This document shows, piece after piece, positions 2,595 to 20,002 of a DNA stretch of 33,622 bases. This DNA is from Candidatus Nealsoniibacteriota bacterium (GTDB lineage: Bacteria; Patescibacteriota; Minisyncoccia; Minisyncoccales; PWPS01), in assembly GCA_003559635.1 (NCBI GenBank), contig PWKU01000034.1, positions 1 through 33,622 of the forward strand, written 5' to 3'. The position numbers were made by a program, and so were the translations under genes. Positions within the stretch are counted from its first letter, which is position 1, and each line of letters starts with the position of its first letter. The notes under the pieces were generated by a model. The model did not search any database, had not been told where the DNA came from, and saw only the letters and a program-made list of their open reading frames with translations.

Positions 2595-4853
2595 TTATTC
2601 TGGGAGGGACTCTAGAAAGTCGTCTGCGGCCGGCGCCGATTCCGGCCGGAGTTTTATAGATTTTAAGGTATGCTCTCTTGCCTTCTCATAATCTCCAATT
2701 CTCTTATAAGCGACTGCTATAGAGGCATGATGCTGGGCTTCTTCGGGCTCTTCTTCAAGCAACATTAAGTAAAAAGGAATCAGAGATTCATAGTTTTTGG
2801 TGTAGATAGGATAGGTCATGATATTGTTTAACCCATGAACGATGTCGTACTCTTTTTCGCGGGCTTTTGCAAAATAAGGTTCTTTTTCTTCTCCAATCAT
2901 TGATAAGGCGACTCCTTTTAAGAAAAAACATGCACCTTCGTCTTTTAAAGCAAGGCACCTCTTCGCGCTGTTTAAGGCATTTTGGAAGTCTTCTTTCTTG
3001 ATCAAAGAAAAGGCAAGTCTTTTATATGAGGGAAAGCGGTTCGGGCTTATTTCTATTTCTTTGGAAAAAGCTTTTATCGAAATATCCAGAAGCTCTTCTT
3101 TGTTATCTTTGTAAGGGATAAGATTTATGGCGTCAATGCCCAAGTTTGACCAAATTCTCACATAAGTAGGCCTCTTTTTTATGGCTTCTTTTGTTGATAG
3201 AAATATTTTTTCTCTTGCTTCTCCTCTAGCTATTCCCGCGGTATCCTCGGTTTCCATACATCCTTCAATAATTGAACTCTTTTCGATTAGAAGGTAAGAG
3301 GTTATTGGGTTTTCTTCTTCTCCTGCTTTTTGTGCAAAGGCCAAAGCGCTATCGCAATTTCCCCCTTTCTGATGAGCCTCTGCAATATTGATATTTCTAT
3401 TAGCCCCAAGAAGCTTTAAATTATAATTAGAAATAAAAAAGATGAGGAGAGGAATAGAAATAACTAGAAAGGGGTATTTATATTTGGAAAGTTTTTCTCT
3501 TTTACTTAATTCATCGGCAATGCTTGTCTCTTTTTCTTTTATGCAAAGAGTAAATATGTAGCCGATAATGGCCGCAAAAAGGAGATAAATCGCAAAATCG
3601 TCAACCGTAAAAAAGTTAGCGACAAAAAAAGTTATAAGGGTTGCTTGCATGGCATGATTTTCCAGTGCATTCTCTGCCGTTTTTTTTCTTAGCGCCAAAA
3701 AGAGGGAGATAAAAATCAACAAAAGGGATATAAGCGCGGGAAATCCTCCCCACGTGCCGATTTCTATAGGAAGATTATGTGCTTTGTCCCACCACGGAAT
3801 ATCTCTGTCAATAAACGGAGTATCCGGATGGTAGTTTCTGTCAAAGGCATAAGAGAAGTTTTCCGCGCCGTAGCCGGTTAAAGGCTTCTCCATTATCGCG
3901 TTCCAGCCAATAATAAAACCGCCGATTCTTGGATCTTCGAGCGCTCTTTGCACCTCCATCCTTCCGGCTAATCCGTGGAGAAAATCGTTGTTTTCTACAA
4001 AGGAAGGGAGGGGGGCGGTGTTTACGTAATATAATCCGAGAGAAGAGACCAAGAAGAACGACAGGAAACCGACTTTCAGGAATCTGAAAACTTTTTCTTT
4101 TCTGGGCAAGAAGAGCATAAAATAAACCGCTCCGACGATGATGCCCAAAATAGCGGCTCTGGTATATGTGAGGAGAACTCCGAAAATAATGATAAAAAGC
4201 GAAGCGGAATAAAATATTCTTTTTGTTTTGTCCTTCTCTTTTAGAAGAAAGGCAGTGAGCGGAAAAACTAAGATAGAGAGATAAGTACCAAAAATTGTGG
4301 GGTTTCCAAAAGATGCGTAAGGTCGCCGTGTCTGAGCGACAATTAAACCATCAAAAAGCTCTTGCCACTGGAGAAAGGCGATAAAAGTTGCCACAACTCC
4401 TGTGAAAAAAATAATATTCCATACGGTTTTCCAGTTCTCTTTGTTCAAGACAAAAAAGAGGAAGTAAGAGAAAAGAATCAACAAGAAAAAATTTAAAAAT
4501 CCTCCTCCCCGAGATGGGTCTCCGAAAATGCTAAAATTAAGGTCCACCGAAAAGAAAAGAGAGATTGTAAGAAAAGAAAGCAGTACGAGCGGAATATAAA
4601 AAAAGGGCTTCTTTTCCGCTCTTATTTTTTTTATGGTTTTGCGGAAAACAGAGGCGTTCTTTTTGAAAAAAACATCATAGGCCAGAAGGAGAAGAAGAGA
4701 GCTGAAAATAATACGGAAGAAAAGTGCCTTTGGAAAAGCGGAAGGGGAGAATAAGGGAGGAAAGTTAAAAAGCACGAGTATAAAGATAGAAGCAATTGCT
4801 CCCATGTAAATAAACGGCAGGTTATCTTTAATTTTAGACAAATTTTTACCCAT
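2595..4853 (-). CDS. O-antigen ligase-like (Wzy/WaaL family) polytopic membrane protein with C-terminal TPR-like region
   Basis: 752 aa; many TM segments; NPTIFGTYLSILVFPLTAFLL, TYTRAAILGIIVG and NLPIEIGTWGGFPALI are typical of the Wzy_C family; C-terminus has TPR-like helices (AVAYKRIGDYEKAREHTLKSIKLRPES). Confidence 0.85.
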   Translation of the reverse strand: MGKNLSKIKDNLPFIYMGAIASIFILVLFNFPPLFSPSAFPKALFFRIIFSSLLLLLAYDVFFKKNASVFRKTIKKIRAEKKPFFYIPLVLLSFLTISLFFSVDLNFSIFGDPSRGGGFLNFFLLILFSYFLFFVLNKENWKTVWNIIFFTGVVATFIAFLQWQELFDGLIVAQTRRPYASFGNPTIFGTYLSILVFPLTAFLLKEKDKTKRIFYSASLFIIIFGVLLTYTRAAILGIIVGAVYFMLFLPRKEKVFRFLKVGFLSFFLVSSLGLYYVNTAPLPSFVENNDFLHGLAGRMEVQRALEDPRIGGFIIGWNAIMEKPLTGYGAENFSYAFDRNYHPDTPFIDRDIPWWDKAHNLPIEIGTWGGFPALISLLLIFISLFLALRKKTAENALENHAMQATLITFFVANFFTVDDFAIYLLFAAIIGYIFTLCIKEKETSIADELSKREKLSKYKYPFLVISIPLLIFFISNYNLKLLGANRNINIAEAHQKGGNCDSALAFAQKAGEEENPITSYLLIEKSSIIEGCMETEDTAGIARGEAREKIFLSTKEAIKKRPTYVRIWSNLGIDAINLIPYKDNKEELLDISIKAFSKEIEISPNRFPSYKRLAFSLIKKEDFQNALNSAKRCLALKDEGACFFLKGVALSMIGEEKEPYFAKAREKEYDIVHGLNNIMTYPIYTKNYESLIPFYLMLLEEEPEEAQHHASIAVAYKRIGDYEKAREHTLKSIKLRPESAPAADDFLESLPE

Positions 4854-12900: not shown

Positions 12901-14607
12901 ATGGAAAAGATAACCACGAAAATAATTTTCTCCGCCGTATTACTTTTGCTTTTGCCTTCTTTGGCAAACAGCGCTTCACTGGGAGATGTGGAAAGGCTTT
13001 TTATCGAATCTGCCTATGACAATCACCAAAGAAGAAATACCGAGGCGGAATTAAAACTCATCACAAACCATATTTATTTTTATGTGGATAAGCGTTGGTG
13101 GAAGAGGGTCTCGGAAGAAGATGCTAAAGAGTATGAAAGAGTAATGTATAGTTTGGGAGGTGAGTTTGAAAAGAACATTTATCCTCGAATTAAGCAAAGA
13201 TTCGGTGTTTTCCCCAAACATAATGTTGTAGGAGAAGGCGAAAGAATAAATATTCTTTTCCATCCCATGGGAGAAAATTTTGGGGGCTATTTTAGATCCG
13301 GAGATCAGCATTCTATTTACCAATACCCACGATCCAACGAGAAAAATATTCTTTATTTAAATTCCAGTTTGATAGAGAATCCCAACTTGAGGGGATATTT
13401 AGCACATGAATATATGCATCTCGTTACTTTTAATGAAAAAAACAAAGAGTTTGGAATAAGCGAGGAGGTGTGGCTCAATGAGCTTCGGGCAGAGCTGATT
13501 ATTAGCAGCTTGGGATATAATGATGACTATGAAAACAGCAACCTAAGACAAAGAGTAAGAACTTTTCTCCGCGATCCGGACATCTCCCTTACTGAGTGGA
13601 CGGAACAAATTGCCGATTATGGTGTGATTAATGCTTTTGGAGAGTACTTGGTCGGGCACTATGGAGAGAAAATACTTATGGACTCCCTTAACTCCCAGAT
13701 TTCCGGAATTCCGAGCATTGATTACGCTTTGGAGAAAAATGAAGTAGGTAAAACTTTTTCGGAAATATTTACGGAGTGGATGATTGCCGTCTATCTCAAT
13801 GACTGCAAACACGGTGATTACTACTGTTATAAGAATGAAAAATTGAAAGACTTCAGTGTTTCTCCTGCAACGGTTTTTATTCCGACAAGAGATGGCGGGT
13901 CAGTCACTGTCAGATATCAGACAAAAAATTGGGCGGGAAATTGGCACCGGATTGTCGGGGGGTCGGGCGATCTTTATTTGGATTTTTACGGAGATGAAAT
14001 ATTTAATGTCCCCTATATTTTGTGTGAAAAAGACGGCAATTGTGAAGTTTCTTTTTTGGAAATAGATGAAGAAGGAGAGGGGAGTGTTGTTATTGAGGAA
14101 TTTAATTCCCGGTATGAATCAGTAGTTATTCTCCCCCACTTACAGCAAAAGTTTACCGGATTTAATGGGCCCGAAAAACCGGTTTCTTTTGAGTGGCAGG
14201 CGGAGGTAAGAGAAGAAAACGATGAAGAAAAGCTTAAACAGGAAGAGCTTCGCGAGCTTAGCGAGAGATTGTCGCTGATTAGAAGCAAAATAGAAGAAAT
14301 AAGTCTTCTTTTGGGCATAGGGTCTTCAGACGAGACATCTTTGGATAAAATAAGAGAAGACCTCCATTACGGGATGAGAAGATCCAGGGAAGTTGAAAAT
14401 TTGCAATTATTTTTAAAAAATCAAGGTGAGGAGATATATCCGGAGGGTTTGGTTACGGGCAACTTTCTCGTATTAACGAAAAGAGCGGTAATTCGTTTTC
14501 AAGAAAGGCACGCGGAAGAAATTTTGGATCCTCTCGGGCTTTCGGAAGGTACGGGATATGTCGGAGTACACACAAGGGAATTAATAAACTCTTTCTTGAA
14601 TAATTAA
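12901..14607 (+). CDS. Secreted zincin-like metallopeptidase (HEYMH) with C-terminal coiled coil and peptidoglycan-binding-like domain
   Basis: Signal peptide-like N-terminus; GYLAHEYMHLVTFNEKNKEFGISEEVWLNELRAELI resembles M30-like HExxH proteins; C-terminus LQLFLKNQGEEIYPEGLVTGNFLVLTKRAVIRFQERHA. Confidence 0.78.
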   Translation: MEKITTKIIFSAVLLLLLPSLANSASLGDVERLFIESAYDNHQRRNTEAELKLITNHIYFYVDKRWWKRVSEEDAKEYERVMYSLGGEFEKNIYPRIKQRFGVFPKHNVVGEGERINILFHPMGENFGGYFRSGDQHSIYQYPRSNEKNILYLNSSLIENPNLRGYLAHEYMHLVTFNEKNKEFGISEEVWLNELRAELIISSLGYNDDYENSNLRQRVRTFLRDPDISLTEWTEQIADYGVINAFGEYLVGHYGEKILMDSLNSQISGIPSIDYALEKNEVGKTFSEIFTEWMIAVYLNDCKHGDYYCYKNEKLKDFSVSPATVFIPTRDGGSVTVRYQTKNWAGNWHRIVGGSGDLYLDFYGDEIFNVPYILCEKDGNCEVSFLEIDEEGEGSVVIEEFNSRYESVVILPHLQQKFTGFNGPEKPVSFEWQAEVREENDEEKLKQEELRELSERLSLIRSKIEEISLLLGIGSSDETSLDKIREDLHYGMRRSREVENLQLFLKNQGEEIYPEGLVTGNFLVLTKRAVIRFQERHAEEILDPLGLSEGTGYVGVHTRELINSFLNN

Positions 14608-15626: not shown

Positions 15627-15701
15627 ATTTTTGAAGGAGTAAAAGAAGATTGCCCTTGACAAAAAAATGCCCTTAAAACCACCATTCCCCCTTAAAAACA
15701 A

Positions 15702-15730
15702 AGCATTGCAGGGTCAGACCCTGCAATGCT
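15702..15730. repeat. REP-like palindrome copy 2 (AGCATTGCAGGGTCAGACCCTGCAATGCT), followed by a T8 run
   Basis: 14-bp perfect arms around one central A; agtttttttt follows, so it may act as a terminator. Confidence 0.85.
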
Positions 15731-15740
15731 AGTTTTTTTT

Positions 15741-15803: not shown

Positions 15804-15831
15804 TTGACATATTTTTTTATTTTGCTATCAT
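15804..15831 (+). promoter_or_regulatory. Putative promoter P1 (TTGACA-16 nt-TATCAT)
   Basis: Consensus -35 and near-consensus -10 in an intergenic region, directly upstream of a terminator-bounded ~60-nt stretch. Confidence 0.6.
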
Positions 15832-15837
15832 TCTCTT

Positions 15838-15899
15838 AGTGGGTAGGTGCGAAAGGTGACTCCAATTCGGCGAAAAACCTCACTCGAGCGAGGTTTTTT
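15838..15899 (+). ncRNA. Candidate small RNA (about 60 nt), promoter to terminator with no evident ORF
   Basis: Starts a few nt after the 15826-15831 -10 box and ends at the hairpin AAAAACCTC-actcgagc-GAGGTTTTTT. Confidence 0.45.
15873..15899 (+). terminator. Rho-independent terminator
   Basis: AAAAACCTC (15873-15881), 8-nt loop, GAGGTTTTTT (15890-15899). Confidence 0.75.
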
Positions 15900-15960
15900 G
15901 CTTTCAAAAAGCTGGTATGATGTCAAAATGTTTCTCTTTGAAAAAAGAGATTTTTTATAC

Positions 15961-15988
15961 TTGACACCTTTTTTCACTCTGTTAGAAT
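15961..15988 (+). promoter_or_regulatory. Putative promoter P2 (TTGACA-16 nt-TAGAAT) upstream of murB
   Basis: TTGACA at 15961-15966, TAGAAT at 15983-15988. Confidence 0.6.
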
Positions 15989-15994
15989 GAGTTC

Positions 15995-16046
15995 GGGTCG
16001 GAAGGCACGTACTCACAGAATTGGAGTTAACGCTTCCGGCCCTTTT
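15995..16046 (+). promoter_or_regulatory. Candidate structured 5' leader of murB: hairpin GGGTCGGAAG/CTTCCGGCCC with 28-nt loop, then TTTT
   Basis: 10-bp stem with one G-U wobble; the loop contains GAATTGGAGT, complementary to 15859-15868. Confidence 0.5.
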
Positions 16047-16062: not shown

Positions 16063-16998
16063 ATGAAAGAAGAAAAGAAGGAAGAGAAGATAGAAACAGA
16101 CCGCTCTTTGGAAAAATATAATACGATGCGTTTGAAAAGCATTGCCGATTTCTTTTTGAGAGCGAAAGATAAGGAAGATATTGTAAAAGGAGTTAGCTTT
16201 GCAAGAGAAAAAGGCATCCCTTTTTTTATTTTGGGTGCGGGAAGTAATGTCATTTTTCCCTCAAGATATGAAGGGCTTGTAATTTTAATGGCGAATAATA
16301 ATTTTAAAGTAATTGAGGAAGAGAGCTCGGTTAAAGTTTTTGCAGAAAGTGGGGCATATCTCCCCCGCGTTTCAGTTTCTGTGGATGAGAAGCTAGGAAA
16401 GGGGCTGGAATGGGCAGGAGGAGTTCCGGGAAGTGTCGGTGGAGCGGTCAGGGGAAATGCCGGAGCGTTTAACGGTTTTATGGCTGATTGCGTAAAGAGG
16501 GTGGTGGCGCTGAATACTGTTTCATTAGAAGAAGAAGTTTTTCAAAACAAGGATTGCCTTTTCGGATACAGGGAAAGTGTTTTCAAAAAGGAGGGGAAAT
16601 ATATTATCTTGGAGGTTGAAATGAAGTTTCCCAAAAAAGAGGAACAAAACGGCAAACAAAAGGAGTATATGGATTATCGTGAGAAGAACCATCCCATCAA
16701 ACCGTCAGCGGGAAGCGTTTTTAAGAATCCTGAAGTAGATGAAAATTTTTATTATTCTTTCCCGGAAACAGAAAAGTTCAAAGAGCTTGGTTTTGTCCCG
16801 GCAAGATTTTTGATAGAGGGTTGCGGTTTGGCAGGGTTTTCGGTTGGAGAAGCGCAGGTATCGGAAAAGCATGCCAATTTTATCGTTAATAAAGGAGATG
16901 CCACTCGGGAAGATATAAAAAAACTGATAAGTATTATAAAACAAAAAGTAAAAGAAAAATTCGGGATTTCTATTACTGAAGAAGTGAAGATTGTTTGA
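16063..16998 (+). CDS. murB: UDP-N-acetylmuramate dehydrogenase
   Basis: FILGAGSNVIF, GLEWAGGVPGSVGGAVRGNAGAFNG, PSAGSVFKNP, ARFLIEGCGLAGFSVGEAQVSEKHANFIVN. ATG 16063 chosen; the track's TTG 16021 lies in the leader hairpin loop. Confidence 0.93.
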   Translation: MKEEKKEEKIETDRSLEKYNTMRLKSIADFFLRAKDKEDIVKGVSFAREKGIPFFILGAGSNVIFPSRYEGLVILMANNNFKVIEEESSVKVFAESGAYLPRVSVSVDEKLGKGLEWAGGVPGSVGGAVRGNAGAFNGFMADCVKRVVALNTVSLEEEVFQNKDCLFGYRESVFKKEGKYIILEVEMKFPKKEEQNGKQKEYMDYREKNHPIKPSAGSVFKNPEVDENFYYSFPETEKFKELGFVPARFLIEGCGLAGFSVGEAQVSEKHANFIVNKGDATREDIKKLISIIKQKVKEKFGISITEEVKIV

Positions 16999-17047: not shown

Positions 17048-17440
17048 ATGGAAGTTGTTATCAAATCAAAAAATATAGATCTTACTCCTCATTTAAAAAA
17101 TTATGCGGAGAAAAAACTTCTTTCCGCCTGTGGTCTTATTCCCGCTCTTTTAGAGAAAGAAGCCGAAGACAAAGAGCAGGTCGGAAGAGATGTAAACAGG
17201 GTAGTCCTGGAAGTGGAAATTGAAAAAGTTACCGGAGATGAAAAAGGCAGGATATTTCGTACCGAAGCGCAGATGATTCTCCCCGGGCGGATAATAAAAG
17301 CGGAAGATGTTGCCGAAACGGTGAAGGCTTCTATAGATGAAGTGAAGTATGAGCTTCAAAGACAGGTGAAAGACTATAAAGAGAAGGTGGAAACGATAAA
17401 AAAGAAAGGTGGACAGCAAGCGAAAAAAATGAGGGAGTAA
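17048..17440 (+). CDS. hpf: Ribosome hibernation-promoting factor / ribosomal subunit interface protein (HPF/RaiA)
   Basis: MEVVIKSKNIDLTPHLKNYAEKKL ... RTEAQMILPGRIIKAEDVAETVKASIDEVKYELQRQVKDYKEK. Confidence 0.85.
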   Translation: MEVVIKSKNIDLTPHLKNYAEKKLLSACGLIPALLEKEAEDKEQVGRDVNRVVLEVEIEKVTGDEKGRIFRTEAQMILPGRIIKAEDVAETVKASIDEVKYELQRQVKDYKEKVETIKKKGGQQAKKMRE

Positions 17441-17467
17441 GTGGATTAATGTAAGTAGAATATACAA

Positions 17468-20002
17468 GTGTCTTTTTTAAAGAAAATATTTGGTGATCCG
17501 AATGAAAAGTACCTAAAGTCAATAAAACCCCTTGTTTCCGATGTTAATAATTTGGAAAAAGAGCTGGAGGGGCTTACCGACGAAGAGATAGGCGAAAAAT
17601 CGAAAGATCTCCAAAGCAGAGCAAAACAAGAACCACTAGACGGCCTTTTGCCGGAAGCCTTTGCTTTGGCGCGCGAATCGGCAAAAAGAACTTTGAGTCA
17701 ACGGCATTATGATGTCCAAATTTTAGGAGGTATTATTCTCCACCAAGGAAGGACCGCAGAAATGAAAACAGGGGAAGGTAAGACGCTTTCCGCCACTCTT
17801 CCCGCCTATCTGAATGCGCTTACGAAAAAAGGAGTGCATATTGTCACCGTTAACGACTATCTGGCGAGAAGAGATACGGTGTGGATGGGGCAGATATATC
17901 ATTTTTTGGGAATTTCCGTGGCGTGCATAAATGACAGGCAGTCTTTTATATATGATCCCGAGCATAAATCGGGAAGCGAAGAGAAGGACGAGGCTCGTGA
18001 TAAGATGGGGTCGTTTTATGTTGAAGAAGATTTTCTTCGACCGTGCAGTAGAAAAGAAGCTTATCTTGCGGACATAACTTACGGAACGAACAACCAGTTT
18101 GGATTTGATTATTTACGCGATAATATGGCGATTACTTTTGCTGACCGTGTTCAAAGAGGATTTAATTATGCGATAGTGGACGAAGTTGACTCTATCTTGA
18201 TTGATGAAGCGAGAACCCCGCTTATTATTTCGGTTCCCGAAGAAGGGGAGGAGTTTGAAAACAAGAAAGCGATGTACAAGGAGTTCTCACAAATTGTCCC
18301 CAAGCTGGAAGCGGGCACCGACTATGAAATCCATGAGAGAGAAAAAGCGGTAACACTTACCGAGGAAGGGATAGAAAAGGTTGAAAGAATACTGAATGTA
18401 GAAAACATCTATGATGATAAGGGAATAAATTCCGTATATCATTTAGAGCAGGCTCTTCGTGCACAGGCGAAACATCCCGAAACAAAAAAACCGACTTATG
18501 AAAAAGATATCAATTATGTTATTAAAGATGGAGAAGTAATTATTGTTGACGATTTTACGGGAAGGCTTATGCCGGGAAGAAGGTGGTCCGGAGGGCTTCA
18601 TCAGGCGATAGAAGCGAAAGAAGGCTTGGAAATAAAACCGGAGTCCAGTACCATGGCTAGTGTTACATTCCAGAATCTTTTCAGAATGTACGACACAATA
18701 TCCGGAATGACGGGAACGGCGGTAACGTCGGCCGAAGAGCTTTTCAAGGTTTACGGAATGGAGGTTACGATTGTCCCCACAAACAGACCCCTTATAAGGA
18801 AGTCTCTCTCCGATTTGGTTTATAAAACGGAAAGAGCAAAATTTAATGCGGTTGTAGATGAGGTTAAAAGAAGAAATGAAAAAGGGCAGCCGGTTCTTAT
18901 TGGAACGGTTTCAATTGAGAAAAACGAGGTTCTTTCAAAGATGCTTAAAAGAAATGGTGTTCCCCATAAGCTGCTAAACGCTAAAAACCATGAAAAAGAA
19001 GCGGAGATTATTGCTCAAGCCGGAAGACTCGGTGCGGTAACGGTTGCGACAAATATGGCGGGAAGAGGGGTTGATATAATTCTAGGAGGAACTCCTCCCG
19101 AGGAAGAAGAAGCACGGAAGGTGTGTGATCTTGGAGGACTTTTTGTTTTGGGTACCGAGAGGCACGAGGCAAGAAGAATAGACGACCAGCTTAGAGGAAG
19201 ATGCGGGAGACAAGGGGATCCCGGAGAAAGCCAATTTTTTGTTTCACTGGAAGACGATTTGATGAGAATTTTTGGAGCGGAGAAAATAAGTGGACTAATG
19301 AGTCGTTTTAATCTTCCGGATGATATGCCGATTGATGCGAGATATGTTTCGGGAATTATTGAATCGGCCCAAAAGAGGGTTGAGGGGCATCATTTTGACG
19401 CGCGTAAGCATATCTTGCAATACGATGAAGTGTTGTTTAAACACCGCGAAAAGTTTTACAAATTCAGAACCGATATTTTAAAGAGGGCGGAGAACAAAGA
19501 AAGAGGCTCGGAAGAAAGTTTGCGTGCTTACATTCTGGAAATATTTGAGAAGAACGAAAAAGACAAGGAAGAATACTTAAAAAAAGAAGAAGACGTTATT
19601 TCGCGAGTGGGAGACGAAGAGAAAGGAAAAGAAGAAATGAATAATATAGAAAGGTTTGTTATCTTGAGAACGATGGACTTTCTCTGGAAAGACCACTTAA
19701 CAATGATGGAGGAGTTAAGGGAGGCTGTACGGCTTAGAGCCTACGGGCAAAAAGATCCTCTTACCGAATATAAGAGGGAGGGCCATAGAGCCTTTAAAGA
19801 ATTAATGGTCAATATTGAGCTCGAAATTAGCGAAAGGATTTTACGAGTTAATATTGCCAGAACAAGACCCAACACACAAAGAATAGTTATAAGGAAGAAT
19901 GTTGAATCGGAAAATAGTGATTCGGGGAAAAAGAAAACCAAGAGAAACGATCCTTGTTTTTGTGGAAGCGGAAAGAAATACAAAAGATGCCATGGAAAGT
20001 AA
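17468..20002 (+). CDS. secA: Preprotein translocase subunit SecA
   Basis: 844 aa; MKTGEGKTLSATLPAYLNAL, DITYGTNNQFGFDYLRDNM, VDEVDSILIDEARTPLIIS, SGMTGTA, NMAGRGVDI, C-terminal SEC-C motif NDPCFCGSGKKYKRCHGK; GTG start. Confidence 0.98.
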   Translation: MSFLKKIFGDPNEKYLKSIKPLVSDVNNLEKELEGLTDEEIGEKSKDLQSRAKQEPLDGLLPEAFALARESAKRTLSQRHYDVQILGGIILHQGRTAEMKTGEGKTLSATLPAYLNALTKKGVHIVTVNDYLARRDTVWMGQIYHFLGISVACINDRQSFIYDPEHKSGSEEKDEARDKMGSFYVEEDFLRPCSRKEAYLADITYGTNNQFGFDYLRDNMAITFADRVQRGFNYAIVDEVDSILIDEARTPLIISVPEEGEEFENKKAMYKEFSQIVPKLEAGTDYEIHEREKAVTLTEEGIEKVERILNVENIYDDKGINSVYHLEQALRAQAKHPETKKPTYEKDINYVIKDGEVIIVDDFTGRLMPGRRWSGGLHQAIEAKEGLEIKPESSTMASVTFQNLFRMYDTISGMTGTAVTSAEELFKVYGMEVTIVPTNRPLIRKSLSDLVYKTERAKFNAVVDEVKRRNEKGQPVLIGTVSIEKNEVLSKMLKRNGVPHKLLNAKNHEKEAEIIAQAGRLGAVTVATNMAGRGVDIILGGTPPEEEEARKVCDLGGLFVLGTERHEARRIDDQLRGRCGRQGDPGESQFFVSLEDDLMRIFGAEKISGLMSRFNLPDDMPIDARYVSGIIESAQKRVEGHHFDARKHILQYDEVLFKHREKFYKFRTDILKRAENKERGSEESLRAYILEIFEKNEKDKEEYLKKEEDVISRVGDEEKGKEEMNNIERFVILRTMDFLWKDHLTMMEELREAVRLRAYGQKDPLTEYKREGHRAFKELMVNIELEISERILRVNIARTRPNTQRIVIRKNVESENSDSGKKKTKRNDPCFCGSGKKYKRCHGK

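Follow-up and report, generated by a model that had tools for sequence, protein, structure and literature searches.

A putative two-helix RNA pair upstream of murB in Candidatus Nealsonbacteria and related Patescibacteria

RESULTS

Organization of the locus upstream of murB

The window that we analyzed is a stretch of 33,622 nucleotides from a Candidatus Nealsoniibacteriota bacterium (contig PWKU01000034.1), in which two putative RNA elements, referred to here as RNA A and RNA element B, are located upstream of murB (Table 1). The name murB rests on recognizable MurB motifs in the open reading frame and on a sequence-only reading of this DNA that preceded our analysis. That reading had placed two sigma70-like promoters upstream of murB, and both are indeed present. 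Both agree with the consensus at 11 of 12 bases and carry a TG ahead of the -10, and they rank as the top two among 11 promoter-like sites between positions 14000 and 18000 on both strands. The strong intrinsic terminator that was thought to end the short RNA was likewise recovered. Its stem shows two-sided changes in 10 of 13 pairs in the alignment of relatives, and folding of the whole short RNA gave a z of -2.3. Across 97 loci, the -35 of RNA A is near-perfect (a mean of 5.75 out of 6 vs. 3.2 in random windows), and its conserved promoter and intrinsic terminator are consensus-type elements from which an independent short transcript is predicted. The transcripts of both A and B, and their ends, are read from the sequence.

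The leader hairpin described in the earlier reading was also confirmed: a 10-bp stem (GGGTCGGAAG/CTTCCGGCCC) closes a 28-nt loop, is followed by TTTT, and folds at -23.8 kcal/mol (z -3.5). The ATG of murB begins 20 nt beyond this stem, and B, judging from this layout, must be part of the murB mRNA in this genome. Three features had been overlooked, namely a second complementarity between A and the loop of B (15839-15850/16005-16016), the CTCGAG core of the terminator loop, and a hairpin with a T6 run between A and B, which is seen both in the sequence and in the predicted fold.

Table 1. Coordinates of the elements identified upstream of murB in the window
Feature	Position	Strand	Description
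Promoter 1 (of RNA A)	15804..15831	+	TTGACA-16-TATCAT, extended -10
RNA A	15838..15904	+	Putative sRNA, about 65 nt; 5' end placed from promoter spacing; model R2
Segment a of A	15839..15850	+	Complementary to a' of B: 7 bp, a mismatch, then 4 bp here
Segment b of A	15857..15868	+	Complementary to b' of B: 12 bp including a G-U
Intrinsic terminator hairpin of A	15869..15902	+	13-bp stem, 8-nt loop ACTCGAGC
Palindromic loop core CTCGAG	15883..15888	+	Predicted kissing-loop self-dimerization site
Extra hairpin + T6	15933..15956	+	Between A and B
Promoter 2 (of B)	15961..15988	+	TTGACA-16-TAGAAT, extended -10
RNA element B	15995..16046	+	Stem P1 15995-16004/16033-16042, 28-nt loop, TTTT; model R1
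Segment a' of B loop	16005..16016	+	Partner 15839-15850
Segment b' of B loop	16018..16029	+	Partner 15857-15868
murB	16063..16998	+	ORF; B is its 5' UTR here

Several other features of the surroundings were noted. After murB, positions 17048-20002 host an hpf-like gene and then secA, a neighborhood that recurs near A/B in other orders, at times without murB. On the other side, a repeat with the hairpin AGCATTGCAGGGTCAGACCCTGCAATGCT adjoins A at 15650-15735; it has four more copies in the same genome with 87-95% identity (G000: C34 twice, C41, and C2) and looks like a REP/MITE-type element. In addition, motifs resembling a Shine-Dalgarno sequence are scarce in the window (2 of the 19 gene starts examined). 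We considered whether the loss of this motif is special to murB and rejected the idea, given that 9 of 93 murB starts compare with these 2 of 19.

Pairing between A and B

A 12-nt complementarity with one G-U had been described between the short RNA and the leader loop, and we found it exactly so: segment b of A (TGACTCCAATTC) pairs continuously with segment b' of B (GAATTGGAGTTA) in helix b. The second complementarity, helix a, involves the 5' end of A (GTGGGTAGGTGC) and segment a' (GCACGTACTCAC), and it is the stronger of the two (computed energies of -19.8 vs. -16.1 kcal/mol). Together, the helices cover 24 of the 28 bases in the loop of B. The segments follow the same order in both RNAs, which makes A effectively the complement of the B loop after circular permutation. 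An internal ACTC/GAGT helix that uses the docking bases can be closed within A and within B alike, and in relatives the internal helix of B occurs as ACCC/GGGT and CCTC/GAGG. Many genomes also carry a variable hairpin between the two segments of A.

Distribution and conservation of A and B

In an initial search of 100 relatives, A and B emerged as separate conserved blocks. Each element was then given its own covariance model, R1 from 25 B sequences and R2 from 22 A sequences. The structure was limited to the stem of B or the terminator stem of A, and hence the models contained no A:B pairing information. Across 196 genomes of the order, R1 matched B in 126 and R2 matched A in 115. Both RNAs were present in 109 genomes, A only in 6, B only in 17, and neither in 64, which corresponds to a Fisher p of about 2e-28 (the two match lists were compared by hand). 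In the last group, about a third of the order, either the system can be done without or its sequences have diverged beyond the reach of the models. At the level of the class, B was matched in 62 of the 289 genomes sampled, and the phylum sample gave one weak B match outside the class. The named matches belong mostly to Candidatus Nealsonbacteria, and the remainder are other Patescibacteria/Parcubacteria records.

Within the window's own family, all four genomes of genus g2 (G008, G011, G014, and G015) were free of A and B matches, which suggests that the two RNAs were lost jointly there. Locus L112 (G134:C84) has two copies of B (2313-2382 and 4053-4122) that lie 1.7 kb apart downstream of a single A, with the second copy preceding murB. 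In L189, L198, L199, and L202, which come from other orders, B can top a long additional stem (CCTCCCACC...GGTGGGAGG, for example), and in L202 one B element is apparently nested within the loop of another.

At the gathering score, the window had no match in Rfam, and no family scored above chance when four loci were searched with permissive thresholds. We also considered whether the pair replaces 6S RNA. A search of 60 genomes from the order gave no 6S RNA above its cut-off, but it was positive in only 5 of 14 control genomes, and this negative outcome therefore carries little weight. Neither Rfam nor the open-access papers that we consulted hold a description of this RNA pair. We infer that A and B constitute an undescribed dedicated RNA-RNA system, with a docking mechanism deduced by comparing sequences.

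Coevolution of the two helices

Conservation and covariation in relatives had been named as the test of the sequence-only reading, and we found both, the covariation by mutual information and by swapping partners. The set used here comprised 96 loci with both RNAs; A matches that were partial or weak, five in all, were dropped before the energies were computed. Duplexes of A with its cognate B loop averaged -17.6 kcal/mol, compared with -14.3 kcal/mol for permuted partners (z -14.8). The same permutation gave a z of -16.6 when A was cut down to its first 12 nt and of -17.4 with the remainder of A. With swaps confined to families, which is the nearest control for shared phylogeny, the z was -6.6 (0/10000). 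Between the 5' end of A and B, the top three mutual-information pairs after background correction fell on a single antiparallel diagonal; among them is the pair formed by the first base of A (A-U in 54 loci, U-A in 12, and G-C in 4). The variable length of helix b blurs the alignment columns, and the evidence for this helix is the duplex test. In the ACTC/GAGT core, the internal helices of A and B could account for some of the covariation.

Both helices, in the same crossing order, are kept in 95 of the 96 pairs. Cognate pairing can also be followed by eye, for example, in L009 (TTCGAGTC/GACTCGGA), L039 (TTTAGTGG/CCTACTAAA), L154 (TATAGGTGAG/CTCACCTATA), and L204 (AGTGTTGAGTGG/CCACTCAACACT). 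When 20 loci of other orders were scanned with nothing but the B loop, a promoter-preceded A was found upstream of B in most, typically at a distance of 105-140 nt, and the cognate score averaged 41.7 versus 36.0 (sd 0.75) with swapped loops. Some genomes have very short linkers, and it is therefore uncertain that both helices form simultaneously in a 1:1 complex; the contacts could instead be alternative or sequential. The idea that the a'-b' spacer tracks the difference in helix length was rejected (r 0.04).

A palindromic terminator loop in A

The 8-nt terminator loops of A were palindromic in 55 of 55 cases and contained five different hexamers, against a background of about 1-2% palindromes among 8-nt loops from other terminator-like hairpins of this DNA. 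This palindrome occurs in many families, not in all, and other loop types exist. A palindromic loop that is kept through different sequences is the hallmark of elements resembling the HIV-1 DIS, and its presence here suggests that A may form kissing-loop homodimers through its terminator.

Position of B relative to murB and arrangement of the pair

In the order, B lies immediately before murB, in the 5' UTR, in 93 of 109 loci. The median distance from the stem of B to the first in-frame ATG is 17 nt, and 62 loci fall within 30 nt. The other loci have B on its own, in inverted orientation, at a contig end, or before another gene. There are eight loci in which murB is divergent from B, yet B is kept. 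In these, B ends in a T-run, or a separate terminator follows it, whereas murB on the other strand carries its own extended -10-like element only a few bases upstream of the ATG and would be near-leaderless. Among the 20 loci of other orders, murB follows B on the same strand in six and an hpf-like gene follows directly in one, with neither gene in the rest. Given the inverted loci and the other orders without murB after B, the function of the pair cannot lie in murB control alone.

Where B precedes murB, the T-run behind it is weak: the longest run averages 3.4, and five or more T occur within 10 nt in 16 of 93 loci. An attenuator would have, between the promoter and murB, a terminator hairpin that ends in a strong U-run, and this is not the pattern of these loci. 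Hence, the earlier proposal that RNA controls the murB mRNA gains from the maintained pairing with a 5' UTR hairpin and loses its premature-termination component. Similarly, the suggestion that the adjacent RNA is a regulator of murB agrees with the common placement of B in the murB 5' UTR and not with the inverted and non-murB loci that keep B.

In five loci (L104, L108, L155, L157, and L158), the B stem runs on, in its 3' strand, into a complement of the murB start (e.g., GGCCCAT...ATGGGCC), and the alternative hairpin predicted there would cover the start codon. Sequestration of this kind was rejected as a general feature; energies support it in L104, L108, and L157, and in L155 and L158 it was seen by eye.

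A and B are arranged in tandem in 85 loci (median gap of 32 nt), convergently in eight, and divergently in three, and in several genomes they are on different contigs or many kb apart. A cis-antisense pair would occupy opposite strands of the same DNA, whereas A and B mostly lie in tandem on one strand. The swaps and the separate contigs reveal a conserved pairing with a target encoded elsewhere, as is expected of an sRNA that may act in trans. Outside this window, the promoter of B has a good -10 (5.24/6) and a weak -35 (3.6/6), the latter often being TTGCTT inside the A terminator tail where the two elements adjoin. Since the promoter of A is near-consensus and the -35 of B is weak, A should exceed B, and an excess of A fits A as a regulator better than B as a sponge.

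DISCUSSION

We consider it probable, on comparative grounds, that A and B are a dedicated RNA pair with two-helix docking, which in Nealsonbacteria-type genomes takes place on the murB mRNA as well. A, made from its strong promoter, would dock on the loop of B through two helices: one between the 5' end of A and the first half of the loop (a:a'), and the other between the segment before the A terminator and the second half (b:b'). Docking would swap the intramolecular ACTC/GAGT helices for intermolecular ones. With both helices formed, the geometry that we envisage has the stem of B, helix a, the hairpin of A, and helix b meeting at one junction. A probably dimerizes through its palindromic terminator loop, which would yield an A2B2 assembly. 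The most likely effect of docking in Nealsonbacteria-type genomes is an adjustment of murB mRNA translation or decay. Because A and B are still found as a pair in loci with a stand-alone or inverted B, whatever function all loci have in common must lie in the A-B complex.

Somewhat more speculatively, A and B could be the two halves of a bipartite structured noncoding RNA (possibly A2B2) that is ancestral in the class and has a job of its own, the B half having become fused to the murB mRNA in one order. We regard this as a tentative possibility.

It is doubtful that A is dedicated to murB, such that translation, decay, or early termination of its mRNA is the whole function and stand-alone B is secondary. 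The frequent position of B directly before murB, often close to the ATG, speaks for this explanation, as does the stronger promoter of A, since a regulator should be in excess of its target. The eight inverted loci argue against it, for there B is kept and murB has a separate, near-leaderless promoter. So do the weak T-runs where murB follows and the class-level B elements, most of which are not before murB, one preceding an hpf-like gene.

We find it unlikely that B is a sponge or decoy that titrates A away from other mRNAs as its real targets. Some genomes do have a stand-alone B with its own terminator, the 5'-end segment and a CUCC segment of A resemble sRNA seeds, and these seed-like segments are more conserved than pairing with B alone would need. 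Against this, a promoter weaker than that of A implies the wrong stoichiometry for a sponge, and both helices are maintained rather than a single seed. Finally, chance complementarity among unrelated promoter, terminator, and hairpin features, already called unlikely in the sequence-only reading, can be set aside with near certainty: a 10-12-nt match within 200 nt is conceivable in one genome, but the matches to B and A in 126 and 115 of 196 genomes, their co-occurrence, covariation, and the partner swaps all oppose it.

A class-wide pair with coevolving double-helix docking would represent an RNA-RNA recognition geometry in which one RNA complements a closed loop of the other in circularly permuted order, and this geometry is testable with two short transcripts. 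The pair may also give access to the way in which uncultured bacteria with reduced genomes control their genes, perhaps including those for cell-wall synthesis.

Like the RNAs collected in Rfam, such as riboswitches, 6S RNA, and T-box elements, A and B are conserved and structured; they differ in that no family matches them. Trans-acting sRNAs of the Hfq/ProQ type are short base-pairing RNAs that act on 5' UTRs and change the expression of their targets, usually with Hfq, ProQ, or a similar protein. The predicted A transcript resembles them in being short, promoter-driven, and terminator-ended, and in pairing with a 5' UTR through its very 5' end. Unlike them, it has one dedicated partner, which it contacts by about 20 bp in two crossing helices, and this partner also occurs away from any mRNA. 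In the sponge pairs GcvB/SroC and RybB/3'ETSleuZ, two noncoding elements base-pair as well, whereas A and B coevolve, usually lie side by side, and include a B whose promoter is the weaker one. The likeness of the A terminator loop to the HIV-1 DIS kissing loop consists in a 6-nt palindrome within a hairpin loop that is variable yet always palindromic; here, it is in the 8-nt loop of a bacterial sRNA terminator, and dimerization is a prediction. Antisense pairs such as RNAI/RNAII, CopA/CopT, and those of the hok/sok type also pair through hairpin and loop regions of two small RNAs. A and B, in contrast, come from separate, non-overlapping loci, and the order of their segments is a circular permutation of the complement rather than the full reverse complement that overlapping antisense pairs have.
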